Source: Cephalotus follicularis
Lineage: Eukaryota > Streptophyta > Magnoliopsida > Oxalidales > Cephalotaceae
Reading direction: 5' to 3'
DNA: 64,000 bases
Assembly: GCA_001972305.1 (NCBI GenBank)
Contig: BDDD01001620.1
Coordinates: forward strand, 124,001-188,000
Positions within the stretch are counted from its first letter, which is position 1; the number at the start of each line of letters is the position of its first letter. The notes under the pieces are model-generated. The model had not been told where the DNA came from. It saw only the letters and a list, made by a program, of their open reading frames with translations, and did not search any database. Both the position numbers and the translations under genes were made by a program. Below are positions 14,726 through 59,169 of the stretch, one piece after another.

Positions 14726-15682
14726 TGTTGATACAAAAATCCATTCTCTCAACAGTATCCTACGTGGAGGACTTTTATTTGTTAAGAGAAACGCTAACCA
14801 AGGATGCCTGTGAGGAAGAATTTGATCTCGGACACCTGCACAAGGTAACAATAATGGTGGAAAGTCCAGGAGGTTGTACTCCCGGGGACACTCCGACGCT
14901 CAAGTTAGACAAGGTGCAGATGAAATTAATACTCTCTTGAATGTAAAAATTGCTGACCTTTGTTCAGTATGTTGAACTTGTATTTATAGTGGAGTTTTGT
15001 AACTGATAGAGCGTGTAAATCGGATTTGATCATTATCCCCTAGGAAATGCCGAGGATCTCGGACATTCCCTTATCTCCGCCTGTAATCTTGCTGTTTTCC
15101 TTAGTTTGTAGTTGACTGTGACTCTATCCCTTTATTTGGATAAGTGTGGATCCCGTGAATCCAGGTGCAGATAACTCCCTTATCCCGTAGTTAAGGTTGA
15201 GGTCCTCCGTGATAGAATTGTAGAAGAAATCAACTATGATACTGTCGCCGAGGTTGTATGCCCCTCAATGTTTCCTTCTCCTCCTCAGTAATATGTGCTT
15301 AAGTAGCCAAGTCCCCCTTTAGTCCGAGGACCAAAGCAATTTTGGTATGTCCGAGGAGGAGCTTCTCAGTTTCTGTGTAGTGGAGGGAGTTCCTCCTGTT
15401 CTCCACCTGATAGATACTTTGGGCCGAGGGAGTCCTCGGCCCTCACACCATGAGTATGGTCTTCTGCCATTGAGTCCGAGGAGTTTCCTCGGACTTGTGG
15501 TCTCAGTGTGTTGTCCTCAACAAATAATGATCCTCGGCCCTAGGTCCGAGGAGGACATTCTTTGTCATGTGTGTGCTCCTCGGCATCCCCTGCTTGTCAA
15601 GCTTGTAATCCCTTTTGGACAACTGGTCAAGTCTGCAGTGGACACGTGTCTTTGCTATTATAAGCATATTTTTCCTCCATCA
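14726..15682 (-). repeat. Element A 3' LTR
   Basis: 957 bp, TGTTGATACA ... CTCCATCA. On the minus strand a TATA box (CTATAAATA, 14981-14990) lies about 700 bp into the LTR, and the conserved leader box (14864-14907) follows it. The upstream U3 part (15322-15585) is packed with CCGAGG/CCTCGG cores. Confidence 0.95.
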
Positions 15683-16900: not shown

Positions 16901-17509
16901 TTTCCTTTCTCATTCTCTGACTTTGCATTTAAATTTTTCTGCTAAGTGTTGTGGTTGATCTCTGCTTGTTGAACTTGTTGATAATTCCCTTAGGAATTTT
17001 TGTCTTCATAGTAATCTCGGACTTCACACATAAGAGAACACTCAATCTTCAAAAGAACTTAAGTAACTTAACAAAAATATAGGTGCAAGAGGCTCTGTCT
17101 TCTCGGACTTGATCTTCAATTGCACCCTTGTATACTTGAACTTTGAAAATATACAGTGGTAATTCCCTTGGGAATTTTCTCCTCGTTGTGACCTCGGACT
17201 TCTGGCATAAGTGGGAAACTAACTCCACAGAGGTTTAAGTAACCAATAATAAAAAGTACAAGCCCTTGCGTTCTCGGACTTAATCTACTCCAGATGTGTT
17301 TGAACTTTGAGTGTGTATGTATACTGATAGTTCCTTAGAACTTTTAACTTTATACAAATCACTAACCTTTGGTAGGCGAGGTCACAAAAGCTTGATAGTC
17401 CCCGTAGGACCCTTCATCTTTGAGAGTACTTTAATTTGATAGTATCTCAGTCTTCACAGTATCTTTATTCTCATAGTTTGAGTTCTTGGTCTGCTCGGAC
17501 AAGTTCTCA

Positions 17510-17700
17510 CGGGTTTGCCGAGGAGAGCATCGTCTGACCTAGGGTGTTCTAGGACAGGTCGGCTGAGCTTTCAGTCCACTTAGAGACACTTGTATTAAAG
17601 TGCTCAGTCCGACGAGCTTGATCGTTGCGAGTTCCCATGGATTCGCCTTTCAAGTCACGACTTTAGGCCTGGTTGGACAAGTTCTCATGGTGTTGCCAAC
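17510..17700. repeat. Element A: three spaced palindromic motifs
   Basis: Copies of an AAGTTCCCATGGGTTTGCC-like motif start near 17510, 17629 and 17678 (spacing 119 and 49). The same trio at nearly the same spacing occurs in B, C and D. Confidence 0.7.
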
Positions 17701-17759
17701 CAGTGTTTGCTCACTTAGGAGTCTTGATGCTTCCTTAGAAGTCTTTGTTGATAAGTGTA

Positions 17760-17845
17760 GATGCTCCTCGGAAGGAGTCTTTTTCTTGCTCCTCGGAAGG
17801 AGGCTTTTATTGTGCTCCTCGGAAGGAGGCTTTTGTTTGTGCATC
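17760..17845. repeat. Element A short tandem of CTCCTCGGAAGGAG motif
   Basis: Three near copies of TGCTCCTCGGAAGGAG plus a T-rich spacer. It stands where D has its 25-bp array and B/C have related CCCGGGGGAGG motifs. Confidence 0.8.
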
Positions 17846-18128
17846 CTTGGATGCTCTTGAACGTCTGTTTGGCTGGTCTACGTAAGACCTCGGCCCATGT
17901 TGATTTTCTTCTTTGAGAATTAGCCTAAGTAAGGCTTAGGAAACCTCGGATCTTGGTGCCCCCTTGAGGGCATGGTCCGAGATGCTTTAAGTTGAACTGA
18001 GGGAACTGATCGGTGGCTGTTCAGAGGTTTGAGGACTTGAACATTGGACCTCCGGTCCCTTGCAAACTTGGAAATATAGAAAACAAATCTTGAAAAATTT
18101 CGAACTTTCATTGAAAATTTCTTACAAT

Positions 18129-21627: not shown

Positions 21628-22584
21628 TGTTGATACAAAAATCCCTTCTCTCAACAGTATCCTACGTGGAGGACTTTTATTTGTTAAGAGAAACGCTAAC
21701 CAAGGATGCCTGTGAGGAAGAATTTGATCTCGGACACCTGCACAAGGTAACAATAATGGTGGAAAGTCCAGGAGGTTGTACTCCCGGGGACACTCCGACG
21801 CTCAAGTTAGACAAGGTGCAGATGAAATTAATACTCTCTTGAATGTAAAAATTGCTGACCTTTGTTCAGTATGTTGAACTTGTATTTATAGTGGAGTTTT
21901 GTAACTGATAGAGCGTGTAAATCGGATTTGATCATTATCCCCTAGGAAATGCCGAGGATCTCGGACATTCCCTTATCTCCGCCTGTAATCTTGCTGTTTT
22001 CCTTAGTTTGTAGTTGACTGTGACTCTATCCCTTTATTTGGATAAGTGTGGATCCCGTGAATCCAGGTGCAGATAACTCCCTTATCCCGTAGATAAGGTT
22101 GAGGTCCTCCGTGATAGAATTGTAGAAGAAATCAACTATGATACTGTCGCCGAGGTTGGATGCCCCTCAATGTTTCCTTCTCCTCCTCAGTAATATGTGC
22201 TTAAGTAGCCAAGTCCCCCTTTAGTCCGAGGACCAAAGCGATTTTGGTATGTCCGAGGAGGAGCTTCTCAGTTTCTGTATAGTGGAGGGAGTTCCTCCTG
22301 TTCTCCACTGGATAGATACTTTGGGCCGAGGGAGTCCTCGGCCCTCACACCATGAGTATGGTCTTCTGCCATTGAGTCCGAGGAGTTTCCTCGGACTTGT
22401 GGTCTCAGTGTGTTGTCCTCAACAAATAATGATCCTCGGCCCTAGGTCCGAGGAGGACATTCTTTGTCATGTGTGTGCTCCTCGGCATCCCCTGCTTGTC
22501 AAGCTTATAATCCCTTTTGGACAACTGGTCAAGTCTGCAGTGGACACGTGTTTTTGCTATTATAAGCATATTTTTCCTCCATCA
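21628..22584 (-). repeat. Element A 5' LTR
   Basis: 957 bp, about 99% identical to 14726-15682. ATTTT follows at 22585-22589. Its outer end is 373 bp upstream of the PRPL10 start codon, and its own transcription points away from that gene. Confidence 0.95.
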
Positions 22585-29143: not shown

Positions 29144-29705
29144 TGAAATGTGAGAAATTTTCTATTTAAAGTATAGTGACACGTGTCCTCAGGAGAAGAT
29201 GTCAGATGTCTTTTTCAGGCCTGGACATGTGGCTTAGCGTTATAATTTGAATGGCATTAATATGCCATAATCCTCGGGCGCTGCCAGCCCACTACCAGAG
29301 ATGTGCGCATGCACAACACCAAGTCTTACAAGGAAGGAGCACCAAATCCGGTGGAGATCAGGAGGAATGCCAGAGGAGTCCGGGCATTTTCCTTAGGGGC
29401 AACCATCAACTCATGTTTCTACGTTCAACAGTTATATTGGAGGTCTATAAATACAAAATAAAACGACTTCAACCAAGTCAGCCACTTTAGCACTCAAAAG
29501 AACCTAGCATTCTCTGTGCAATTACTAACTTGAGCGTCGGAGTGTCCCCGGGAGAACAACCTCCTGGACCTTCAACCTTTGTGCTCTTATTGTACAGGGA
29601 TCGTCAATCACGAAACTACCTTTCTCGGACAGATTCCAGCGTTTCCATTACAAATCAAAGCCCTTCATGTAGGGTACTGTTGATGGAAGGATTTTTGCAT
29701 CAACA
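29144..29705 (+). repeat. Element D 5' LTR
   Basis: Starts TGAAATGTGAG and ends TTTTTGCATCAACA. TATA box CTATAAATAC is near 29445, and the conserved leader box (GAGCGTCGGAGTGTCCCCGG) is near 29531. The start is set by comparison with the 3' LTR and is approximate. Confidence 0.65.
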
Positions 29706-29724
29706 GTTGGCGCCGTCTGTGGGA
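29706..29724 (+). other. Element D primer binding site
   Basis: GTTGGCGCCGTCTGTGGGA directly after the 5' LTR, the same site as in elements A, B and C. Confidence 0.9.
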
Positions 29725-30159
29725 AACGGGACAAAAAGTTATGTTAATCATACCTCTAAAGAGAACAAACACTGCCACTGCTCTCGATCAACCAGAAAAA
29801 TTGAATCGCAAAATTAGAATAGCCTCACATAGAGGCCAGGCGAAACTCGCTAAGGGGGGAAAGACGCCCTCTAAAACGGTCAGAGATTGATACATCTCTG
29901 AGGATAGAGTCTTCCACTACAAGCGCTCAAAGCCAGATGAGGATGGAAGTCCTCCCGATGACCATTCTGAGAAGCCCCCAGGAGAACATTCCGAGAAATC
30001 CTCCAGAGGACCACTCCAAGAAGCCCCTAAGAGAGCATTCCAAGAAGTCCTCCAAAGGACCACCAGTGCACCACAAACATCTTACCAAATGCTAGGGGCG
30101 TAAAAGCTGCCCAAAAAAGCACTACTCAAACGCATGCTCTAGATACACACTTCAGGAGA

Positions 30160-31260
30160 GCTCAAATGCCCTGGAGAATGCATGCTACAAGGAGACAGCC
30201 AGGGAGCAAGGTGCCATGCATCCCCGACACCCTAAGCACGCATACAACAGGGAGACAGCCAGGGAGTAAGGCGCCACGCATCCCCAGCTCCCCATCTCCC
30301 CAGCACCTCAGCACACATGCAACAGGGAGACAGACAGGGAGCAAGGCGCCATGCATCCTCGGCACCCTAAGCACGCATGCAACAGGGAGACAGCCAGGGA
30401 GCAAGGCACCACGCATCCCCAGCTCCACAGTGCCATGGATGCTTTCTACAGGGAGCCCGGCGCTCCTCGCCACCTCAGCTCCTCAGCGACATGGATGCCT
30501 TCTACAGGGAGCCCGACGCTCCTCGGCACATCAGCTTCTCAGCACCATGGACGCCTTCTACAGGGAGCCTAGCGCTCCTCGGCACCTCTGCACCTCGGTG
30601 CCTTCCTTTCTCAGCTCCTCAGTACGCCATGCATGCTACAGAGAAGGGACGCCATCCCCGGCGCCTTGCCTCCGTAGCACCATGGACGCCATCCCCGGCA
30701 CCTTGCTTCCACAACACCATGGATGCCTTCTATAAGGAGCCCGGCGCCCCTCGGCACCTCTGCACCCCTACGCCTTCCTTCCTCAGCTCCTCAGCACGCC
30801 ATGCATGCTGCAGAGAAGGGACGCCATCCTCGGCGCCTTGCCTCCGTAGCACCATGGACACCATCCCCGGCACCTTACTTCCACAGCACCATGGATGACA
30901 TCCCCGGTGCCTTGCACCTCGGCTCATCAACACCTCTGCATCCCATGGAGCCCAGCGCCATGCATCCTTGAATCCTTAGCACCACAGCCCAGCGCCATAC
31001 ACGCATGCGTCAGGGACACCTCTGCACCCCATGGAGCCCGATGCCATGCATGCTATAGTTCTATGCATCCTCAACATCATGGAGCCCGGCGCCATGCATC
31101 CTGGCATCCTCAGCACCATGGAGTACAGTGCCTTGCTTCCTCAGCATCTTAGCAAGCCATGCATGCTACAGTTCCATGCATCCTCTGCCAGGGAGCCAGG
31201 TGCCTTACATCTCAGCTCCTAAGCACCTCAGCACAGCCAGGGAGCCCGGCGCCTAGCATC
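30160..31260 (+). repeat. Complex GC-rich tandem repeat block in element D
   Basis: Three repeat types are interleaved. The first is about four copies of a roughly 60-bp unit with CAACAGGGAGACAGCCAGGG. The second is about three copies of a roughly 59-bp unit with GCCTTCTACAGGGAGCCCGG. The third is a duplication with a shift of about 188 bp (30577-30750 against 30765-30895). Open frames up to 189 codons cross it, but they are repeat translations without a known domain. Confidence 0.8.
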
Positions 31261-31471
31261 TCGGCACCTTGGGCATGACGATGGCACCTCAATACCTTGG
31301 ACGCATGAGCAGTGGAGAGGCATGCTTAGCTCCTCGGCACATGACGTTGGAGAGTCATGGTTTGCACGTTTACATTACACTAGTGTATCCTAGGACGTGT
31401 GCATGGGTGGCAGGATGCATGCTCAGTGCATGGGTGGTAGGACGCATGCTCAGTGCATGGATGGTACAGTG

Positions 31472-31788
31472 CACCCAGGGGGCAAATCAAAAAGACCCCC
31501 CAGGGGGCAATTCAAAAAGACATCCCAGGGGGTAATTCAAAAAAGACCCCCTAAGGGGCAAAACAAAAAGACCCCCCAGGGGGCAAAACAAAAAAGACCC
31601 CCCAGGGGGCAATTCAAAAAAGACCCCCAAGAGGTAAAACAAAAAGACCCCCCAGGGGGAAAAAAAAAAAAGACCACCTAGGGGGCAATTCAATAAAGAC
31701 CCCCCAGGGGGCAAAACAAAAAGACTCCCCAGGGAGAAAATAAAAAAGACCCCCCAGGGGGCAAAAAAGACTCCCCAAGGAGCAAACA
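31472..31788 (+). repeat. 25-bp minisatellite with palindromic CCCCCAGGGGG core
   Basis: About 13 units of roughly 21-26 bp, each made of a near-palindrome (CCCCCCAGGGGGCAA) and an A-rich spacer ending in AAAGA. Elements A and B have one to three looser copies at the matching place. Confidence 0.9.
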
Positions 31789-31794
31789 CTGGTC

Positions 31795-31996
31795 GGCAAC
31801 CCCATGGGAACTTACCAGACCAGGCCTAAAATCGTGTCTTGAGAGGCGAATCCATGAGAACTCGCAACAATCAAGTTCGTTGTACTAAGCACTTTGAAAC
31901 AAGTGTCCCTACGAGGATTGCAAGCTCAGACGACCTGGTCTAGACTATAATGGACCAGACGAGACCCTGCTTGGCAAACTCATAGGAACTTGCCCG
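31795..31996. repeat. Element D: three spaced palindromic motifs
   Basis: Inverse-strand copies of the AAGTTCCCATGGGTTTGCC-like motif start near 31795, 31845 and 31974 (spacing 50 and 129). These match the spacing in A, B and C although D has no coding region. Confidence 0.75.
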
Positions 31997-32451
31997 AGCA
32001 GACCTTAAACTTGGTCTATGAACACACCAGAACTCGTAAAGACTAAATCCTTTTGCCTAAGCGCCTTTGAAATAAGGTGTCCTAAGAGGACTACAAAGCT
32101 TGGGTAATTAGGCCTGAAAATTGTAAGGCCACAACATAAAGTCTATAAGTTAGACTAAATTAAATTTCCTAAGGGAATTGTAAATGTCCGAGAAGAGCTC
32201 AAGCATATCATACAATGAAAAGAAAGAGAAGAAAGCCTGGGGTGAAAAAGCTTAGTATTTTATTGATACTTGATGAGATCGCACAGACTTCTTTACAAGC
32301 AATAAGACTCCCAAGGGAGCAACCCCAGCAGGTCCACAGCTCAAAGACTCTTAAGCGAGCACTAGCATCCAAGGTCTGCTCAAAGCAAGTCTACCTCCCA
32401 AGTGCTCCTCCTCCTCTGTAAAATACAGAAAAAGAAGGACCAGGGGGCATA

Positions 32452-32952
32452 TGATATGGAAAAAATCCACATCTTATGGAGATGCTGACACGTGTCCTGG
32501 AAACCCATGGATATGGGTTGACTACCCAGATCATGGTCATAATGAGGGAGATATTCTCTCCCATTATGGATAAACAAATTGGAAAAGATAAGGAAACATC
32601 CCTAAAAATTAGGCGGTTTCCTAGGGACCATTAACTCCACCCCATGATGCTTGCTGGACAGTTACAACAAAGGACTATAAATACCCCTTACAACAATGAT
32701 ACAGGGGTTGGTCACTTCTCTCTCACATATACACTCTTCTTCTCTGTCAAACACTGACTTTAGCATCGGAGGGTCCTCGGGAGTAAAACTCCTGGGATTT
32801 CGACAGTTTGTTCACCATGTGTGCAGGGAATACAGGAGAAAGCAGGCAGCAGAGAATTGCAGAGCACTCTTCAGAACAGTGTCGTCTCTTCCCCAACAAA
32901 TAAACCCTCCGCACGCCGGAGGACTGTTGAGGACTATTTTTTTGCATCAATA
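32452..32952 (+). repeat. Element D 3' LTR
   Basis: Starts TGATATGGAAAA after the tract ACCAGGGGGCATA. TATA-like ACTATAAATACC is near 32670, the leader box is near 32757-32800, and the end reads TTTGCATCAATA. It is clearly different from the 5' LTR apart from these landmarks. Confidence 0.65.
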
Positions 32953-38170: not shown

Positions 38171-38175
38171 GTAAC

Positions 38176-38822
38176 TGTTGATGCAGAAATCCTTCCGTCA
38201 ACAGTACCTCACGTGTAAGGGCTTAATTTGTTTAGAGGAGAAGCGGGAATCTGTCCGAGAAAGGGTGTTTAGTGATAACTTATGATCCCTGCACAAGCAA
38301 GAGAAAAATGTAGAAGGTCCAGGAGGTGGTACTCCCGGGGACACTCCGACGCTCAAGTTAGCAGTTGTACAGAGAGTAATCAGGTTCTTTATGTGCTAGA
38401 AAAATGGCTGACCCTTGTATTGACTGTTGAACTGGTATTTATAGGAATGTCTGTGATTGATGAGCGTCCCATCAGGAGTTGGCTGCCCCTAGGGAGAAGA
38501 CGTCAGTGGCCCTGACATTTCCCTTGGTCTCCTCCCCATTTGGTGTCCATAGCCGCAAGCCCATTAAGGGATTGGAGGGTTGTGGCGGCTTGTCAGTCTC
38601 TTTCCTCACACTGATGTGACGGGGTGTCAGCCTATCTGTGTGGCTGCGCGGGCGTGCAAGACTGGCTTCCTGGCCTGTGTGGCGTGTCAGACTATCTGGG
38701 AGACCTTTTCCTTGATTGATGACAAGACGTATACCCCATGCTCTCATTCCCTGGGAGGACAGCTGTTGTCCTCCTCTCCTGACACGTGTCATTAGGCTTA
38801 TAAGGGATTTTTCCCCATATAA
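38176..38822 (-). repeat. Element B 3' LTR
   Basis: 647 bp starting TGTTGATGCAG. TATA box on the minus strand is near 38436-38444 and the conserved leader box at 38317-38360. A PPT (minus strand GGACCAGGGGGG) adjoins at about 38823-38840. Confidence 0.93.
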
Positions 38823-39866: not shown

Positions 39867-42574
39867 ATGACCACCTCGTCCTCCTCGTCCTCTCTCTCTG
39901 GCAACCCTATGGCGAGAACGAAGCAAACAAAAAGACTCCTCAGGGGCCCTGAAGCGGTTGCCCGTGCGTCCACGGGAGTAACAGTGGCTGTCCGCCCCCT
40001 AGATATGGAGGTGGAGATGGGGGCCTCCGCCGCTGGGAATCCCAACGTTGAGGCCACCGGGGCCGGAGTCTAGGTCTTCCGGGCGGACTTTGAAGAGTCC
40101 ACCATGCACTCACACAAACTGGCGCAGCTGGCCAAGGAGTACGCCATCCCTGGCGAGCTGGACTTGGAGATCCCAGCTGACCCTCGGTCTGCTACCATGA
40201 GCCAGCCGGGGTATTTCGTGGTGTTCCAGGACGCCTTGGAGCACGGACTGAGGCTCCCCCTGCCTCCGTTCGCTATCACCGTCCTCAGGCATTACCAGAT
40301 CCACCCCTCTATGCTGCAAGCTCAGTCCTGGGGGTTTATCCTGGGGTTCCTCGTGCGGTGCCTTGAAGCGGGGGCGGTGCCCACCATTGGATTGTTCAAG
40401 GAGTTCCATACCGTGGCTCCTACTCCGAAGAAGCGCGGCTTCCACTTCAAGTCGGGTGTGAGCTGCCCGAAACTGCTGGAAGAGAACACCAAGTCAGTCA
40501 AGCACTGGAGGAAGAAGTACTTCTTGATCAAGAACATCCCTGGCTTCACGCCCTGCCCTTGGGCTGACTCGCTGGACATCGGGCGCCTGAACTAGAGGTC
40601 TTTCCTGACCAGGGAGGAGGCAGCGGATTTGAGGAGGCTCTCGGCTCTTGAGCCAGAGTACGTGCTGAAGGTCGTATCCGAGGACCGTCTGCGGAGGTAC
40701 GGGCTGAGCATGTCTGTGGGCCACAGGGCTAGGCTGGAGCTGGAGGCCGAGGAAGGACCCGTGGGGGCGCAGGGAGAGAGAGAGCGAGACGGTCATGGCG
40801 GAGCTGCTTCCTCCGCGGCCCCGCAAGGAGAGAGCCGTACTATGCTTTCTCTAGGGCTAGTTTATTTTTATGTATGTGCTAACCCTTTCTCTTTCACCGT
40901 CTCTAACTGTTTCTTTCTTTGTCTGCGCAGGGATGGCACGCCAGGACTCCGCTATTGACCTACTCAGGGCTGGGCGCGAGCAGGCCCGCTCTGAGGACCC
41001 AGAGACGCAGAGGAGGGACGCCGAATGGAGGTGGAGGGCCCTGGAGAAGTCGCGGAGGGCGACAGAGAGGAGGGCGGCTAGGAAGGCCGAGGCCAGGGCA
41101 AGGCTAGAGGAGTTACCCCAAACCATATCTGTGGAGGCCAGGGCGGCCAGTGATGCTGAGGAGAGGAAGGCTAGGGAAGCAAGGGCGGCGGCAGCCAGGG
41201 AGGCCAGGGCCGTGGCGGCCTTGGCTGTGAAGGAAAGTGAGGCCAGTGCTGCGAGGGCCCGGGCAGCCAAGGAGGTGTGTGCCGCTGAGGCGGTGCAGAA
41301 CGCTGAGGCGATAGCTGCTGAAGGGGCCGCAGCTGCCCGAGAAGTCCCGGACCCCTCCGCCAGGGAGCCCATATCTGACGGGGAGCTGGGTCATCCCACG
41401 AAGAGGCCACGGACAGAGAAAGGGAAGGCCCCCGCAGGCGAGGCCGTTGAACGCCGCCTGTGCGATCCCGACCATCCCTATCCCGCCGCGGAGCTCGGGA
41501 AGGTGAGGGATATTATGGGAGAGCTTGGGCGTGCTGGGGTGTGCCTGAGGACGTCGGGGGTCGTTACGGAGCTGGGCCGGGCAGGCATGTTCCCTTACGA
41601 GGCGGGGATGAGGGAGGAGTGGACGGTTGGCCAGCTTTGGACCAACCTCTTCCAGTGCTGCGAACGGGTAAGCCCACCTGTCTTCGACCTTCTTCTTTGA
41701 AATTGAATCTTTTTGTTGAACCTATATTGACGCGTTCTCTTTTCCACAGGCTATGGTCAACGCCCATCTCTTGATGAAGAAGACCGACCAGGAGTCCAGC
41801 CTGAACGAGCAGCTGGGGGCCGAGAACGCCGAGCTGGGCAGATCTCTGGCCGCGGCTCGCGCCCAACTGGAGGAGCTACTGGGGGCCCAGGAAAAGCTGG
41901 CGGCTGAGAAGGAGGAGGCCAAGCAGGAGGCCCATAGGGAAAGGGGGCTTAAGATTACCCTGGAGGAGCAGAGGGACAGGCTCGACGGCAGGGTGGAGGC
42001 TCTGAGTAGCCAGTTGGCCAAGTGTCAAGAGCTCAGAGATGCCAGGGTCAGGGCCACCGCAGAGAGGGCTGTCCTGGACTTCAAGGCCTCGGCGGAGTAC
42101 CGGGATGCAATGGACCAAGCCGTGGAGCTCTACAAGGCCTCTGAGGACTTCAACCGCGAGGTCCTGAAGAAATCCTCAGCCAACTTTCGCCGGGGGTACT
42201 ACACCTGCCGGAATATGGTGGACTGCTTTCCGGACCTCCCGATGGGGTCCTTCGTCTGTGGCCCTTCCGTAGCAGAGTACAACTTCATTCCGGAGGGCAT
42301 CGAAGAGGCCGAGGACGAGGCCTTCAAAGCCTTTGATGAGGAGCAGAGTCAAGCTCAGGGTCCTCACTGGTCACCCAACGGTCACGACATTGTCCCATTC
42401 GATGCATCCGTCGAGGAAGCCTTTGATGCTGAGCCCCTCTCGCGCATCATTGCCGAGGAGTCCGCCCCGGCACGGTCGGTCGAGGATGATCCAGCTCCCC
42501 CTCCCCCAACGGAAGAAGATGACCCTCCTCCCCCTCCGCCGATAGTGGACATCCCCTCAGGGGACGAGGCCTAG
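39867..42574 (+). pseudogene. Element B opposite-strand gene unit (aORF)
   Basis: It starts at ATG 39867 (MTTSSSSSSLSGNPM). The N-terminal part has the layout of the putative gypsy-type transposon family (Transposase_28-like): YFVVFQDALEHGLRLPLPPF, ITVLRHYQIHPSMLQAQSWG. The middle is an Ala/Arg/Glu-rich helical stretch (about 40935-41340) and a basic KRPRTEKGKAP segment that could be a nuclear signal. After an intron-like 41668-41749 comes a coiled coil, then NFRRGYYTCRNMVDCFPDLP and an acidic/proline-rich tail ending at 42574. A further acceptor-like signal is at 40930. Extra opposite-strand ORFs are known from Tat elements; function unknown. It is broken by a few changes. Confidence 0.75.
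41668..41749 (+). other. Intron-like segment in the element B aORF
   Basis: 82 bp, GTAAGC ... CTTTTCCACAG, T-rich inside. Element C has the matching 79-bp segment (56819-56897) with the same ends, so the signals are shared. Confidence 0.65.
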
Positions 42575-43040
42575 CATAGCCCTCCCTTTTTTTGTATTTA
42601 GCTTTGCCTTGTAACTTTTTCCTTTTTCTGCCTTGTAATTTTGATTTATCAATACAATGAAGTGTTTTTACATTTAACTTGTCCATTTCGTTTATTTGCC
42701 TTTAACAATTCACAAAGCACTTAGGAAGCATCGCGCTCCCTGGCCCCGGACTCTGCCAGCCTTGCGCGCGGTGCTTGCGCTTCTCCCGGGTCTGCACTGT
42801 CCCCTTATGGCAGTTGAATGCAAACAACACCACAATCCTATGACTTGACACGTTCGATCACTTAGGTTTTGTCGTCCTCTTAGGATGATGAAGTGTAAAT
42901 AGTATAACAGTCTATGAACTTTGATCGCCCAAGCTTGGTAGTCCCCTTGGGACACCTCGTTTTAAAGGTGCTTAGGCAAAAAAGACTTAGCCTGTGCAGG
43001 CTCTGTCGCGTTCGTAGACTAAGCTTCTGCTCTGCCCGGG

Positions 43041-43240
43041 CAAGTTCCTATGGGTTTGCCGCACAGGTTGTCGTCTGACTCAGCAAGTCGCGAGCCAGGT
43101 TGTCTGAGCTCGCAGTCCACGCAGAGACCCTTGTATTAAAGCGCTCAGTACAACGAACTTGATCGTTGCGAGTTCCCATGGATTCGCCTCTAAAGACACG
43201 ACTTCAGGTCCGGTCACGCAAGTTCCTGTGGGATTGCTGA
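43041..43240. repeat. Element B: three spaced palindromic motifs
   Basis: AAGTTCCCATGGGTTTGCC-like motifs start near 43041, 43169 and 43219 (spacing 128 and 50). Related CTCCCTGGGGGGTC and CCCCCGGGGGAGG palindromes follow at 43250-43310. Confidence 0.75.
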
Positions 43241-43452
43241 CCGGGGGATGCTCCCTGGGGGGTCTTATTGTTTCTTTGGGAGTCTTCACGTGATCCCCCG
43301 GGGGAGGCTTTTTATTGGGTGCTCCGCTGGGGAGCTTGGGTCAGTCGGCCATAAGCTGGGGTCTGGTAGAGCCCTCGGGAGTCGGTGCCAAGGCGCAGGC
43401 GCGGGCTTTACGCAGGAGTAAGAGGCTTGGCCTAGTTTTGGTCGTGCTCCCG

Positions 43453-46030
43453 TGTCACACCCGTTCCCTGTAATAACCAATATCCTACCGAGAACGGATA
43501 TGACGTTCCACATGACAACTTCCTTTCGGAAGTCACCATATGGATTTTTATAACTTAAAAATCGCTTCAAGACTTTCCAAAATTATTCATAAAATTTGAC
43601 TTTTCCAAAACTTTGAAAATTTTTCTAACTTTTAAATTTTTACGAAAATCGGGCATGTAGTATCCGTTTATCGGACTATGCCCCCTGTAAAGAAAAACAC
43701 ATTTTATAAACACACTCCCGAAGGAGGAATCAACAGGTTATAATGGGGCTCAGCCCTCAGCAAACCACATTTTAAAGTAGTAAACATGGGTTGGGCTTAG
43801 CCTCAACCATTTCAACAAGCAATAAAAGTAAATCTATAGGGCTCGCCCCTTTTAAAAGCAAAACCATAAAAGAAAACTTTTATATAAAAACATAAGTAAA
43901 TGCATGAATTAGGATAAAATTTCCGTTGAACAAGCTCAAAGCTCGGGACTTCCCAAGTACAATAAAATATCATGAATACGAATATGATCAACAATCATGA
44001 AAAGTTCGACAGCACGACTTCAATGAAATAACCAATGGCTCAACAAGGAAGTCCATTGAACAAATATCATGCTCAAGACACCAAATCAAATACATGAGAG
44101 TCTCAATAATCAAAGTATCAAGATATCAAAACTCAAAGATACGATCGTAATACAAATATCAAACATCAAAATCAAATATGTGCCCAGAAGTAATAATAAT
44201 ATGAGAGGATGCTGGTACCAATCATAGCACTGTCTCATACCTGCCGCCAAATCACATGGCAATACAATCTGCTCTACCGCCAAATCACATGGCATCATAT
44301 CATATGACCGCTAGATCCCATGACGTCATAATACAACTGCTGCAGCAATAATATAGGACAATAGGCTACAAGATGTGTACATCATCCTTCATACACCGGT
44401 GCAGAGTGCCTATGGTAAACATAACATACATACCTCGACCGATGGGACGTCGTTATTTCACGGATCTACCCTCGTCGGAATCACATCACAGAACCTCGAC
44501 CGAGGGGACGTCGTGTACCACACGGATCTGCCCTCGTCGGAATCACATATCACAACCTCGACCGAGGGGACGTCGTGTACCACACGGATCTGCCCTCGTC
44601 GGAAATCACATAGCCAATATGGTCAAATGGATGAGGGACGGAGCGTCGGCTGCACTCACACTCAGCATACCATCATAGACAATAGTATGCCGCAGATCCA
44701 GGTATGGAACCCGGGGGCAGTTCCCACATAGCATCCTATCATAGACCAATGGGCATACTAAGGAGAGTTGATCGTCGAACGTACCCTCACCATTGACCGG
44801 TAATACATATCAGAAATCTCGGTACCCAGCATCAGAATATAACATAGTATCATGACATGTCACAATATCACAAATGTGAGAAGGTGACCAAGTCACCCAG
44901 AACATCGAGCATACACCCGCTCGGAAACCATATCACAAATAACATGCTCAACACAAGACATACGGGATTGCAAATCCCAATCGAATCATAACACATCATG
45001 GAACATAAATGGGCACATGAATGTATAAGAATCTTAAGGATAAATAAAGATAGGGAGGAAATGTCCCACTCACGGATATCTCAACAAAACACAGAGAAAG
45101 TGACATTGTCACCAGAGTCAGAAATAATCATTTAGTTCACAACAATGATGTCACAATCACATTATCGTACTTTCCAAAAATCATTAGGTATAAATCAAGA
45201 ATGTCAAGAGCAGTAGCTCAAGTATAACAATACGGAGTTAGAAGAAACAAATATATCTCCGCAAGAGACCAAACGGATATAACAATAACAATAACAATAA
45301 TGATATATGTTCACAGGAGCCAATGCGGATATAACAACAAGGAGACAAAATGAATATACAATCAATCGAAATATACCGATAAAGGGTTCAAGCAAACGAT
45401 TCGGAAATTGATTCAAATTAAACTATCAATAAGGGATTCCAAGAGAAATTATGGAATCAGCATATCACAAGCCATAAAAGTCAACAAACAGGATATCAAC
45501 AAGCTTAGGATATCAACAATTCAGAATCGACAAATAGGCTATCAACAAATCATATGAATCGACAAGCTGTGGCATTTAAAAATCACAATAGAGGCAATAA
45601 AGGCATATATTAATCATCAACGAATTTCAAAGTCAATAAGATAAAGGAAGGAGATGTTCTACTCACAACATCAGAGCCGATACTTTCACGAACTAACCCC
45701 TTGAAGCTTTGAATCGACTATCGGGTTCTCATCATCGTTTCGAAACTCTAACAACCGTCACTCTGCATAAACAACACATATCCGTTACCTCTTACACATA
45801 CGTAACTAACACTGTGAGTCACTGGAGGTTTGGCCAATTTTCGGTCAACCTGCCAAAGTTTCGACGACACCTAAAACAACCCCTAAAACCACTGATCAAC
45901 TCACATTACTGATCGAAACTCACGGCGACACGCCCGGGAACGGGCAGATAATAACAATAATAACAATCACAATTAATACTATGCTTACGTCATGCAAGAC
46001 GACCTCGTAAAAGTGACACGGGGTGTCACA
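43453..46030 (-). mobile_element. Element E: 2.58 kb solo LTR inside element B
   Basis: Starts TGTCACACCC and ends GGGTGTCACA, flanked by TCCCG at 43448-43452 and 46031-46035. Element C shows the empty site. No gag, pol, primer site or second LTR was found inside, so a solo LTR is the simplest reading. It shares a stem-forming phrase and the minus-strand start TGTRACACCCCG with the remnant at 4291-8303. The exact target repeat and the nesting show it came after element B. Confidence 0.8.
44433..44615 (+). repeat. 61-bp tandem repeat in solo LTR E
   Basis: Three units starting at 44433, 44494 and 44556, each with CCTCGACCGAGGGGACGTCG and ACGGATCTGCCCTCGTCGGA. The last two are nearly identical. 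Confidence 0.9.
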
Positions 46031-46375
46031 TCCCGTCCTCAGTTCAGCCCGGCCCCTGGAGATGTTTTGTCAGGGGTGCCCCGGCAAAACCCTTGGGCTT
46101 GCCGCCGGGGTGAGGCCCCGTCCCTTCGGCGTCGGTTGAGAGTTTGGGGGTGGGGGTTGTTCCCCCTGCTTAGCGTTGTTAGGTCTGCCTTCATGGGGGT
46201 CTTTTTGGTGCTTCCCTGGCGGGGAGGCTTCGTTAGGGATGGTCGACGGCTGTTTAGGGGTTAAAGAACCCCCGACCCCTTGCAAACTTGGAACTATAGT
46301 CTTGAATATAATTTTTGAAGGAAGAGTTGAGAAAAAAGTCTTTTATTTCCTGAGTTTGTGTACATTTAACAACTA

Positions 46376-47640
46376 TTGGTAGTATTTCCTCAGATGCTCG
46401 GAATTCCAAGCTTTGGCAATCTCCCTACCCCCCAGAGTTTCAAGTTTGAATGTTCCTGGTCGGAGTACTCTTTTGATCTTGTATGGCCCATCCCAGGCAG
46501 GGGCTAGCTTTCCTCTAGTCCCGGTGGGGTCTGAAATTGCTGAGTTGCGCAGGATCAGGTCTCCTTGCCATAGTGGTTTGGGGCTCACCCTCTTGTTGTA
46601 GTAACGGCTCACCCTTTGTTGGTAAGGTGCGACTCTGATGGCGGCCTTGTCTCTGAGCTCTCCTACCAGATTGAGGAGGCACCTGAGCCCTTCTTCGTTA
46701 TTTTGCTCTGTGAAGTGCACAACCATTAGTGACTGGACACCAATCTCCACCGGTATCATGGCCTCCGCTCCGAAGCAAAGACTGAATGGGGACTCCTCAG
46801 TGGTGGTCCGGGGAGTAGTTCTATACGCCCACAAAACACTTGGTAGCTCCTCCGTCCATCTTCCTTTGCTGTCTTCAAGGCACTTTTTCAAGCCCCAGAT
46901 GATTTCTCTGTTTATTACCTCTGCTTGGCCATTGCTCCGGGGGTAGGCCACGGAGGCGAGCCTATGCTCTATTCTCCACTCTTGACAAAAGTCGCGGAAA
47001 GCCTGGCAGTCAAACTGTTTTCCATTATCTGAAACTATTATCCTGGGGACTCCGAACCTGCAGATGATGGACTTCCACACGAAGCTTTCGGTGTTCTTCT
47101 CTGTGATAGTGGCCAGGGGTTCCGCCTCTACCCACTTGGTAAACTAATCTACTGCCACGACGAGGAACTTCCTCTGGCTTGTCGCCATCAGAAGCGGACC
47201 TACGAAATCCATCCCCCATTGTGCAAAGGGCCAGGGGGCCGTTATAGATGTTAGGGGCTGAGAAGGTCTTCTGTTTATCTTTGCATTCCTCTGGCACTTG
47301 TCGCATTTCCTCATCAAATCCACGTCGTCTTGATGCAAAGTTGGCCAATAATATCCTTGCCTTAGCAGATTGTGGGACAACGTCCTGCCCCCTGTGTGGT
47401 GGCCACATACTCCTTCATGGACCTCCCTTAGAGCATAATCAACCTCTAGGGGAACCAGGCATCTCAGCCAGGGGAACGAAAAAGACCTTTTGTAGAGAAT
47501 CCCCTCACGGAGCTGAAATCTGTTCGCTCTGTACACCAGTTTCCTCGCCTCCGTGGGGTCCTCGGGTAAACTCCCATCCCTTAGCCAGTTAACAAACTGT
47601 GTCATACTGTTTGGCTCTTGGGGTAAGTCAATGTCCATCA
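46376..47640 (-). pseudogene. Element B integrase region
   Basis: The minus-strand frame shows the zinc-binding part (HEGVCGHHTGG, CDKCQRNAKI), the catalytic core (WGMDFVGPL, SDNGKQFDC, YPRSNGQAEVINRE) and the C-terminal domain (PYKIKRVLRPGTFKLE). It joins element cDNA to the host chromosome. Very similar to the integrases of A and C. Broken. Confidence 0.92.
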
Positions 47641-47799
47641 CATCTAGTCTGAAGATGGTGGTCCTGTCCAGGTAATCTATAAGCACGGTTTGATTCTTCT
47701 CTAATTCCCCTTCAGTGGCTAGTTTCGACAGCTGGTCTGCTAGGGCGTTTTCTGCCCTGGGTATCCTCGTAACTCTGAGAACTTCGAAAGTTGGCTTCA

Positions 47800-49590
47800 A
47801 ATTCTAGAAGTGTGATAAGTACTTTGCCATTGAATCCTCTCGGGGCTCGTACTCCTCGCAGTCCAGACCAACCACTAACTGAGAATCACTGGAGGCTTCT
47901 ATCCTCTGCACCTCTAGATGCTTCGCAATTGTCAGTCCGGCTATAAGAGCTTCCCATTCAGCTTCGTTGTTTGTGGCTTTGAAGCAAAACCTCAGAGCAT
48001 ACTCCAATGTCCACCCACTTGGACTCACCAGTACCACCCCTGCACCACTGCCCGTGATGCAGGAAGAGCCATCCACGGATAACTTCCAGCTCTCCCTCTC
48101 ACTTTTGGAGGGGTCCTCCTCCATACACTCCGTGGGTGTATTATTTCCAATAAAGTCGGCCAGGACCTGTGACTTGATCATTGGTCTGGCTTCAAATTTC
48201 ACATCATACTCGCCTAGCTCGACTGACCACTTAATTAGTCTGCCCGAGGTGTCAGGCTTCGTGAGAACTTGCTTGAGTGGCTTGTCAGTCAGAACTTTAA
48301 TTGTATGGGCTTGAAAGTACGGCCTTAACTTCTGGGCTGCGATGATCAAAGCATAGGCGAACTTTTCCACCTCCGGGTACCTCCCCTCAGCATCATTTAA
48401 CGCCTTGCTCACAAAGTACACCGACCTTTGAACCTTCTCTTCCTCTCTGGCCAGCACTGCACTCACTGCGCCCGGGGCGGCCGCAATGTACAAATACAAG
48501 TCTTCTCCGTCCTTAGGCTTTGAGATCAGGGGCGGGGAATCTAGGTACTCCTTCAACTTGTCGAAGGCTGCTTGGCATTCATCTGACCAGGAAAACCCCT
48601 TGGGGTCCCTCAGCACCCTAAAGAACGGGAGGTATTTCTCTGCTGACTTTGAAACAAACCTGCTCAGGGCCGCTATCCTTTCACTCAGCTTTTGCACATC
48701 CCTGATGGTTTGGGGAGGCCTTACATCTTGGACAGTCGAGATCTTCTCTGGGTTGACCTCTATTCCTCTGTCCGAAACCATGAACCTCAGGAACTTTCCT
48801 GAGGTGACCCCAAAAGTGCACTTAGAAGGGTTGAGTTTCATTTGATAACTTCTCAGCACCTCGAACGTTTCCTCTAGGTCTTTGATGTGGGGGCTCCTGG
48901 CCGGAGTTTTGACGAGCATGGAATCAATATAGACCTCCATGTTCCTTCCAATCTGGGGCTCGAAGATCTTGTTGACCAGCCGTTGGTAGGTGACCCCTGC
49001 GTTCTTTAAACCGAAGGGCATGACCTTGTAGCAATAAATTCCCCGGTCCGTGACAAAGCTGTCTTGTTTTCATCGGGTTCATGCATAGGGATCTGGTTAT
49101 ACCCTGAGTAAGTGTCCAGAAAGCTCAACATTCTGTAGCCCGAGGTCGCATCAACCAACTGGTCTATCTTTGGAAGGGGGAAGTGATCCTTCGGACAGGC
49201 TTTGTTGAGGTTGGTGAAGTCGATGCACATCCTCCACTTGCCATTCGCCTTTTTGACTACGACTGGGTTCGCCAGCCAGTTTGAGTACTGCACCTCCCTT
49301 ATGAACCCCGCCCGCATCAGCTCACTCACCTCCTCGGCTATCGTTAGCTGACGCTCATGAGCAAAGTTTCTCTTCTTATGCCTGGTCGGACTCCTGGCCG
49401 GATCCACGCTTAGTCTGTGAACCATGACGTTTGGGCTGATGCCAGGAACTTCCTCCGCCGTCCAGGCGAACACATCTCTGTTATCCCATAGGAATGTTAT
49501 TAATTCCCCCTTCTCCGCCTCTCCGAGCTGTGAGCCGACTTGGAAGACTCTCTCGGAGTTGCCCGCTTCCAAGGGCACCTGGACCACGTC
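47800..49590 (-). pseudogene. Element B reverse transcriptase and RNase H region
   Basis: Reverse transcriptase motifs occur in order: ANPVVVKKANGKWRMCIDFT, LNKACPKDHFPLPKIDQL, SGYNQIPM, MPFGLKNAGVTYQRLVN, then the palm and thumb part (KLNPSKCTFGV). RNase H follows with DGSSCITGSGAGVVL, NNEAEWEALIAGL and SSDSQLVVG. RT before RNase H and integrase is the Gypsy order. Broken. Confidence 0.92.
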
Positions 49591-52049: not shown

Positions 52050-52068
52050 TTCCCACAGACGGCGCCAA
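52050..52068 (-). other. Element B primer binding site
   Basis: The minus strand reads TTGGCGCCGTCTGTGGGAA beside the 5' LTR, identical to element A. Confidence 0.9.
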
Positions 52069-52069
52069 C

Positions 52070-52716
52070 TGTTAATGCAGAAATCCTTCCGTCAACAGTA
52101 CCCCACGTGTAAGGGATGAATTTGTTTAGAGGAGATGCGAGAATCTGTCCAAGAAAGGGTGTTTAGTGATAGCTGATGATCCCTGCACAAGCAAGAGAGA
52201 AAGGTAGAAGGTCCAGGAGGTGGTACTCCCGGGGACACTCCGACGCTCAAGTTAGCAGTTGTACAGAGAGTAATCAGGTTCTTTATGTGCTAGAAAAATG
52301 GCTGACCCTTGTATTGACTGTTGAACTGGTATTTATAGGAATGTCTGTGATTGATGAGCGTCCCATCGGGAGTTGGCTGCCCATAGGGAGAAGACGTCAG
52401 TGGCCCTGACATTTCCCTTGGTCTCCTCCCCATTTGGTGTCCATAGCCGCAAGCCCATTAATGGGTTGGAGGGCTGTGGCGGCTTGTCAGTCTCTTTCCT
52501 CACACTGATGTGATGGGGTGTCAGCCTATCTGTATTGCTGCACGGGCGTGCAAGACTGGCTTCCTGGCCTGTGTGGCGTGTCAGACTGTCTGAGAGACCT
52601 TTTCCTTGATTGATGACAAGACATATACCCCATGCTCTCATTCCCTGGGAGGACAGCTGTTGTCCTCCTCTCCTGACACGTGTCATTAGGCTTATAAGGG
52701 ATTTTTCCCCGTATCA
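52070..52716 (-). repeat. Element B 5' LTR
   Basis: 647 bp, starts TGTTAATGCAG and ends CCCCGTATCA. GTAAC follows. Leader box at 52210-52255. Confidence 0.95.
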
Positions 52717-57942: not shown

Positions 57943-58408
57943 TAGCTCTTTTCTTTTTTGTTTTTAGTTTCACCTTGTAACTTTCTCTTTTTCTCAGCAT
58001 TGTAGTCTTTGAGTTATTAATAAAATGGTGTGTTTTTATTTCAAACTTGTCCATGTTGTTTATTTTCCTTTAACAATTCACAAAGCACTTAGGAAGCATC
58101 GCGCTCCCTGGCCCCGGGCTCTGCCAGCCTTGCGCGTTGCGCTTGCGCTCCTCCCGGGCCTGCACTGTCCCCTTAGGGCAGTTGAACGCAAACAACATCA
58201 CAATCCTATAACTTGACATGCTCGATCACTTATGTTTTGCCGTCCTCTTAGGATGATGAAGTGTAAATAGTATAACAGTCTCTAAACTTTGATCGACCAA
58301 GCTTGGTAGTCCCCTTGGGACACCTCGTTTTAAAGGTGCTTAGGCAAAAAAGACTTGTCCTGTGCAGGCTCTGTTGCGTTTGTGGACTAAGCTTCTGCTC
58401 TGCCCGGA

Positions 58409-58608
58409 CAAGTTCCTATGGGTTTGCAACGCAGGTTATCGTCTGGCTCAGCAAGTCACGAGCCAGGTTGTCTGAGCTCGCAGTCCGAGCAGGGACACTT
58501 GTATTAAAGCGATCAGTACAACGAACTTGATCGTTGCGAGTTCCCATGGATTCGACTCTCAAGACACGACTTCAGGTCCGGTCGCGCAAGTTCCTGTGGG
58601 ATTGCCGA
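58409..58608. repeat. Element C: three spaced palindromic motifs
   Basis: AAGTTCCCATGGGTTTGCC-like motifs start near 58409, 58537 and 58587 (spacing 128 and 50), the same as in element B. Confidence 0.75.
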
Positions 58609-59169
58609 CCGTGGGATGCTCCCTAGGGAGTCTTATTGTTTCTTTGGAAGTCTTCACGTGATCCCCCGGGGGAGGCTTTTTGTTGGGTGCTCCGTTGGGG
58701 AGCTCGGGTCAGTCAGCCATAAGCTGAGGTCTGGTGGAGCCCTCGGGCGTTGGTGCCTGGGTCCGGGCCCGGGCTTTATGCAGGAGTAAGAGGCTTGGCC
58801 TAGTCTTGCTCGTGCTCCCGTCCTCAGTTTAGCCCGGCCCCTGGAGATGTTTTGTCAGGGGTGCCCCGGCAAAACCCTTGGGTACGCAGCCGGGGTGAGA
58901 CCCCGTCTCCTCGGCGTCGGTTGAGTGTTTGGGGGTTGGGGTTGTTCCCCCTGCTTAGTGTTGTTAGGTCTGCCCTCCTGGGGTCTTTTTGGTGCTTCCC
59001 TGGTAGGGAGGCTTCATTAGAGTTGGTCGGCGGCTGTTCAGAGGTTGAAGAACATGAACATTGGACCTCCGGCCCCTTGCAAACTTGAAACTATAGTCTT
59101 GAATACAATTTTTGAAGTAAGAGTTCAGAAAAAAAGTCTTTTATTTCCTGAGTTTGTGTACATTTAATA

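Follow-up and report, generated by a model that had tools for sequence, protein, structure and literature searches.

The Mason-Pfizer CTE is a structured transport RNA for unspliced retroelement RNA, and elements of the RTE/MTE type are placed downstream of pol. Retroviruses also have dimerisation sites composed of repeated hairpins with palindromic loops, and in rice the elements Dasheng and RIRE2 combine a gene-less element with a coding partner of like type. For the IAP RTE and the musD MTE, the available text of PMC12786077 describes structured cis-acting RNA within an LTR element and the nuclear exit of unspliced RNA. The available text of PMC11963269 describes, for the plant Retand lineage, an extended stretch separating pol from the 3′ LTR in which tandem repeats occur, and antisense ORFs encoding a Transposase_28 domain. 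A structured module is not described in that text, the terms "hairpin" and "secondary structure" are absent from it, and the passage located with "palindrom" is a reference title.

The window, which is the whole 64-kb stretch of Cephalotus follicularis DNA analysed here, contains four elements (A to D), and the counts given below are drawn from the 1.58-Gb genome of this one species. The arrangement of A and B matches the Retand layout as given in the available text of PMC11963269, and between pol and the 3′ LTR a structured module is observed whose place recalls, by analogy, the IAP and musD transport elements. The module differs from these in being a tandem duplication of a branched unit, with export as its putative role. 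No Rfam match to it and no description of it were found in a full-text literature search that covered few subscription papers. Element D and its coding relatives resemble Dasheng and RIRE2, where likewise an element without genes is matched by a similar type of coding partner.

Architecture of the elements and the motif trio

The sense strand is minus in A and B and plus in D, judging by which LTR is followed by the PBS and which is preceded by the PPT (Table 1). On the minus strand of B the RVT_1 and RNase H domains are followed by rve, the order of a Ty3/gypsy pol, and A has an RNase H-type domain followed by rve. Element C extends past the window edge; its pol is assigned by similarity to pieces of B, and it has an ORF region homologous to the antisense ORF region of B. 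A Pfam search of the antisense ORF of A gave no match. Placement in an RT tree aside, the pol order together with the antisense ORF would class A, B and C as LTR retrotransposons of Tat/Retand type. ARAGORN finds no tRNA genes in the window. A nested insertion of 2.6 kb in B (43453-46030), with TG...CA ends and a 5-bp target duplication (TCCCG), is absent from C and resembles a solo LTR; because of it the distance from module to pol is stretched in B.

The module is located in the gap between the ends at which pol and the antisense ORF region converge, starting ~0.35 kb (B) or 0.5 kb (A and C) past the antisense ORF stops. The same place is usual elsewhere in the genome: in 28 of 30 loci with 1.5-kb flanks the 3′ end of the integrase lies in antisense orientation on one side, and antisense-ORF matches are among those listed at 27 of the 30. 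Among the listed matches, L023 has the antisense ORF only and L024 has neither antisense ORF nor integrase. An independent, SINE-like mobile element was considered and rejected, given the integrase 3′ end beside the module in those 28 of 30 motif-2 loci; also against it, L023 aligns with A through the antisense ORF, the module and the end of pol, and L024 matches D.

Table 1. Positions of features of elements A to D within the window
Feature	Element	Positions	Strand	Remarks
LTRs	A	14726-15682 and 21628-22584		identity 99.1%
Motif 1 core	A	17500..17519	+	motifs 2 and 3 begin at 17628 and 17678
Module	A	17380..17746	+	profile HMM match
Unit 2	A	17528..17664	+	R2 156.6 bits; copy used to build R2
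LTRs	B	38173-38820 and 52067-52714		identity 96.3%
Antisense ORF region	B	40074..42574	+	three stop-to-stop ORFs
Transposase_28 domain (PF04195)	B	~40218-40415	+	in antisense ORF region; E 3.3e-11
pol (RT, RNase H, integrase)	B	46373..49069	-	convergent with antisense ORF region
Motif core starts	B	43041/43169/43219	+
Module	B	42923..43287	+	profile HMM match
Unit 1	B	42906..43033	+	R2 match, E 0.0041
Unit 2	B	43069..43205	+	R2 138 bits; copy used to build R2
Motif core starts	C	58409/58537/58587	+
Module	C	58291..58655	+	profile HMM match
Unit 1	C	58262..58401	+	weak R2 match, E 0.055
Unit 2	C	58437..58573	+	R2 136.5 bits; copy used to build R2
PBS	D	29707..29725	+	same 19 bases in A (21608, minus) and B (52050, minus)
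PPT	D	32439..32448	+	counterparts in A (15687, minus) and B (38827, minus)
Motif core starts	D	31992, 31864	-	third core (TAAGTTC) another 50 bp along
Module	D	31745..32109	-	profile HMM 370.8 bits; D itself in profile-building set
Unit 1	D	32000..32138	-	R2 match, E 7.6e-6; not in R2-building set
Unit 2 (branched, motif 2)	D	31828..31964	-	R2 155 bits; copy among the 68 building R2
Motif 0 (CGAGTTC, degenerate)	D	32030-32036	-	within unit 1
Array of ~25-bp units (short palindrome and T-rich stretch)	D	31474..31765	-	adjoins module

The preliminary description reported three imperfect palindromes at fixed spacing in each of the four elements, and the trio is indeed present in all of them, with cores of CAAGTTC or CGAGTTC. 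The spacing is constant at 128 and 50 bp in A to D. Of the two gaps first reported, that of 49-50 bp stands as 50 bp throughout, whereas the range of 119-129 bp is replaced by a uniform 128 bp; the false value of 119 in A arose because the start of 17510 given for its motif 1 is 10 off. The literal palindrome, GGCAANNNNNCATGGGNTTTGCC, is not matched anywhere in the window when 3 mismatches or fewer are allowed. A fuzzy search of the window with the compact form, GGCAAGTTCCCATGGGTTTGCC, recovers all 12 motif sites and 5 other matches at up to 6 edits. In the 1.58-Gb genome the compact form is matched 3578 + 3606 times at up to 3 mismatches compared with 1 + 3 for the reversed pattern, the exact motif-2 form 2127 + 2054 times compared with 1 + 1 for its control, and a 26-base pattern joining the stem before motif 2 to the motif 2 start 2635 + 2631 times compared with 2 + 1. 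The occurrence of the motifs is not due to chance, because the genome holds thousands of matches against a handful in the controls.

Seventy loci were picked solely for motif 2. Of these, 68 have a core resembling motif 1 upstream, no more than 1 bp from its expected distance, and 56 have one resembling motif 3 at the expected distance downstream, in a loose core search (up to 5 substitutions) for which a reversed-core control over whole loci matched 8 of 70. By alignment, the motif-3 core is deleted in 6 of the 14 loci that do not show one. With 68 and 56 of the 70 loci keeping the expected distances, the spacing does not vary freely in the larger set.

A tandem module with a conserved branched fold

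The trio belongs to a larger module of ~365 nt, which consists of a ~175-nt unit duplicated in tandem, the two copies having diverged. In either copy a branched fold bears one motif hairpin and a further motif hairpin comes after it, giving four motifs in the module, the first of which (motif 0, in unit 1) is degenerate. The hairpin apex common to the motifs reads AAGTTCC.ATGG on the plus strand of the window. The preliminary description already contained the idea of a module, but it had overlooked that the module is duplicated in tandem, that it holds a fourth, degenerate motif and that it lies between pol and the antisense ORF region. All 70 loci picked by motif 2 match the module profile, which the same loci helped to build. 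The duplication is apparent from the sequence alignment of unit 1 with unit 2, which in 101 of 102 copies is better than each of five shuffles, and a motif-0-like word is present in 48 of the 102 compared with 6 after shuffling. The 102-copy alignment omits four partial module copies (L077, L136, L116 and L093).

Covariance model R2, describing unit 2, was built from the 68 of the 102 copies that make up alignment A2 (34 left out) with a given structure of 43 pairs; it followed an earlier model, R1, which relied on the fold made by the tool and held just 12 base pairs. Sets of 44, 10 and 2 sources were searched with R2. The model detects unit 1 with E below 0.06 in 4 of 12 module copies, namely L024 (E 5.7e-7), D, B and C, and unit 1 of A gives no R2 match at E up to 1. 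Rfam covariance models have no matches in the window, and the best Rfam match to the module of B reaches 13 bits, short of the gathering score of 45, at an E of 4.1.

Arrays of ~25-bp units start near the module end at several loci and differ between copies in number and sequence; that of A (17762-17851) is composed of a palindrome followed by a T-rich stretch on the plus strand. Two modules or module motifs are found on one strand ~0.5-1.1 kb apart in L004 (219-581 and 1275-1637), and like pairs occur at C28:1084256 and 1084786 and at C4810:15499 and 16023.

The branched secondary structure of the module is well supported. RNAalifold predicts 84 pairs on both strands from the 102 copies, and 87.2% of the cells in these pairs are Watson-Crick compared with 17-30% for slid partners and 24.6% in simulated alignments; alternative Watson-Crick pairs fill 238 cells, whereas simulation gives 136 on average and 217 at most. 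The consensus energy of unit 2, set against 100 column shuffles per strand, has a z of -7.5 (plus) and -6.7 (minus). In a further comparison 93.2% of cells are paired (29.1-43.5% with slid partners), 84 cells show double changes (37.2 when shuffled) and the covariation score is 0.120 (0.088 when shuffled), the latter two levels never being reached in 500 shuffles. Two Watson-Crick types occur in 8 of the 11 pairs that are fixed within subfamilies and variable between them; among the 8 compensatory pairs, 4 are adjacent in one helix and 4 are also unpaired in another subfamily. Pairs carried over from unit 2 to unit 1 are still Watson-Crick in 1972 of 2604 cases (slid partners, 2645 of 9540); 180 of the 1972 are altered on both sides between the units, and the remainder of the 2604 comprise 144 G-T, 209 A-C and 279 unpaired. 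Paired columns are better conserved than unpaired ones (0.90 compared with 0.79).

Stricter statistics are less favourable. An R-scape-like test of 65341 column pairs yields no significant pair, with a null maximum above the observed maximum, and the 16 pairs with two Watson-Crick types fall within the simulated null (mean 13.5, maximum 21). Within subfamilies, where changes are read as decay and the copies are mostly taken as dead, rescued changes are not in excess (238 compared with a mean of 229.8 and maximum of 241). The level of 11 pairs changed on both sides is attained in 68 of 500 shuffles and that of 40 further pair types in 181 of 500, and after shuffling the paired share remains as high as 91.3%, compared with 93.2% observed. 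Single sequences fold mildly better than their shuffles, with a mean z of -2.47 on the plus and -2.11 on the minus strand (34 of 102 copies).

Wobble pairs choose no strand, with 364 G-T and 422 A-C cells, 69 and 67 rare deviants, and at least 10% G-T in 10 and at least 10% A-C in 9 of the 84 pairs; single-sequence energies favour neither strand. The sense RNA of pol is favoured as the putative active strand on an argument from retention, because D retains PBS, PPT and module whereas neither the pol queries nor those for the antisense ORF match it.

Conservation was profiled over 619 ordered copy pairs from different subfamilies in bins around motif 2, which served as bait, hence the bin containing it is favoured. 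Between -100 and +99 the aligned share of each bin is 93-100% and the identity 77-80%, similar to the integrase side (400 to 1399; 61-84% aligned, identity 79-83%), whereas the antisense-ORF side (-1400 to -301) is 7-23% aligned. The unit-1 half (-300 to -101) is 27-72% aligned, and integrase-like conservation holds for the unit-2 half of the module only. Compared with the antisense-ORF flank, the motifs are the better conserved.

Gene-less relatives and the distribution of the module

The LTRs of D differ from each other, as first noted. Of the coding parts reported as lost, RT, RNase H, integrase and antisense-ORF queries from A and B find no match in D, and two short pieces match the start of the gag frame of A, a frame that begins in the LTR. 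The open frames of D (234 and 175 amino acids) lie in a tandem-repeat stretch and have no Pfam match. What D keeps is the PBS, the PPT and the module, the structured stretch being short, local and common to the coding relatives. L024 matches D at 87-89%. Element D (29148-32520) looks mosaic, as its 5′ LTR matches the LTR beside the L024 module at 89% and its 3′ LTR is different; the similarity between D and L024 ends ~70 bp beyond the module, where another family takes over.

In D a segment joins the module directly to the PPT. Among the best 40 of 2430 first-look candidates scored for this segment, one is D and the other 39 have identities of 88-92%. The module is present in 10 of 10 neighbours fetched from these 39 relatives, each with unit 2 and a cut-off unit 1 that R2 matches with E from 3.3e-7 to 3.9e-4. 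Such D-like copies are recognised by the module-PPT junction; on 10 contigs with both matches, a chosen D-like internal match lies 0.5-1.9 kb from the module-PPT segment.

No module is seen in 30 Transposase_28 loci with 1.5-kb flanks (L039-L068), flanks that are mostly too short to judge. Windows taken 1.6-3.6 kb downstream of 8 Transposase_28 places contain the module in 3 (L114-L116) and not in 5 (L109-L113). L110 and L111, which have a distant integrase, show no module with the gap between antisense ORF and integrase covered bar ~100 bases; L109 and L112 have no integrase match, and L113 stops short of the gap. The best genome Transposase_28 matches are ~26-39% identical to the antisense ORF of B (one short piece, 53%), and the integrase of L059, L110 and L111 is ~36-52% identical where matched. 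L039-L068, L110 and L111 are classed from their sequences as a putative second, distant Retand-type clade, with no module in the two members whose gap is covered.

Contig C5651, which carries L113, has an integrase 89% identical to that of A, with the end of antisense ORF 1 650 bases off, and the gap between them (L147) contains no module and no antisense ORF 2 or 3. A deletion is read here because the module and antisense ORFs 2 and 3 are both missing between the ORF 1 end and the integrase; C5651 keeps the Transposase_28 ORF and appears to be a natural deletion. The module is therefore present in 3 of 4 A/B-like elements with the gap covered, and the fourth lost it with most of its antisense ORF region.

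Candidate functions of the module

The earlier suggestion of a conserved non-coding module, perhaps a structured RNA, agrees with the conserved island, the fold and the retention in D-like copies. The module is probably a signal needed for copying of the element, and the reading to which we give slightly more belief than doubt is that of a cis-acting RNA structure in the genomic RNA of Tat/Retand-type elements, serving export or packaging. A protein-binding RNA element would by analogy be expected to look much like this, with branched units that hold, in duplicate, a recurring hairpin whose apex hardly varies. The two tandem branched units would present up to four hairpins with a common apex, to which Gag, an antisense-ORF protein or a host protein would bind in the full-length pol-sense RNA. 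The bound full-length RNA would then leave the nucleus unspliced and/or be packaged, and gene-less derivatives would need the module to be copied in trans. Export and packaging of the full-length RNA stand jointly first and are inseparable here; their place as the step served lies just on the probable side. It is decidedly improbable that the binding partner forms a pair of the Rev/RRE kind, in which the antisense Transposase_28 protein would bind the sense-RNA hairpins and the gene-less relatives would keep the target.

Action of the structure in the antisense transcript, as a 3′ UTR after the Transposase_28 ORF region that controls stability or 3′-end formation, is unlikely. It would fit the short distance at which the module follows the antisense ORF stops in A, B and C, the conserved G-T pairs that lengthen stems of the motif hairpins on that strand only, and the lone A/B-like element in which the module and most of the antisense ORF region are lost together; D and the module-PPT junction copies, however, keep the module without an antisense ORF there, and G-T is not favoured over A-C overall. 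A double-stranded DNA array, consisting of sites for dimeric proteins, such as that of the antisense ORF, or of cruciform-forming palindromes and acting in transcription or chromatin, is quite unlikely. The branched, nested pairing over ~135 nt and the compensatory change of stem sequences between subfamilies are at odds with such an array, even though wobble pairs show no strand preference, the Transposase_28 domain is predicted to bind DNA (available text of PMC11963269) and the antisense-ORF protein of maize Grande is nuclear (available text of PMC7264820). The protein-binding array raised in the preliminary description survives in part, in that proteins may bind the hairpins, whereas an array of palindromic DNA sites fails to explain the branched and nested pairing.

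Dimerisation, the other function proposed at the outset, is weakened. A retroviral-type signal with palindromic loops would be in keeping with repeated hairpins bearing CATG-type apices, but the self-complementary CCATGG loop needs CCCATG, which is seen in the motif-1 loops of 24 of 102 copies, the motif-2 loops of 60 of 102 and the motif-3 loops of 36 of 83 (19 more being gapped). With the loop palindrome inconsistently retained, kissing-loop dimerisation was rejected, and a dimerisation signal is considered very improbable. It is likewise very doubtful that the module is a neutral relic, reflecting the recent spread of a few source copies and an accident of pairing in an old inverted-repeat cluster: the covariation is mostly between few subfamilies and the strict phylogenetic test is negative, yet the module still aligns in copies whose antisense-ORF flanks have become too divergent to do so, and much of the pairing persists in the second of the tandem units.

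A cis-acting RNA structure for export or packaging would give the region between pol and the 3′ LTR of Retand-type elements, hitherto unexplained, a part with a likely function. The module sequence provides a signature that links gene-less families to their coding partners. With its motifs present thousands of times and kept by gene-less relatives, the module offers a target of 365 nt on which export, packaging and trans-mobilisation could be tested in plants.
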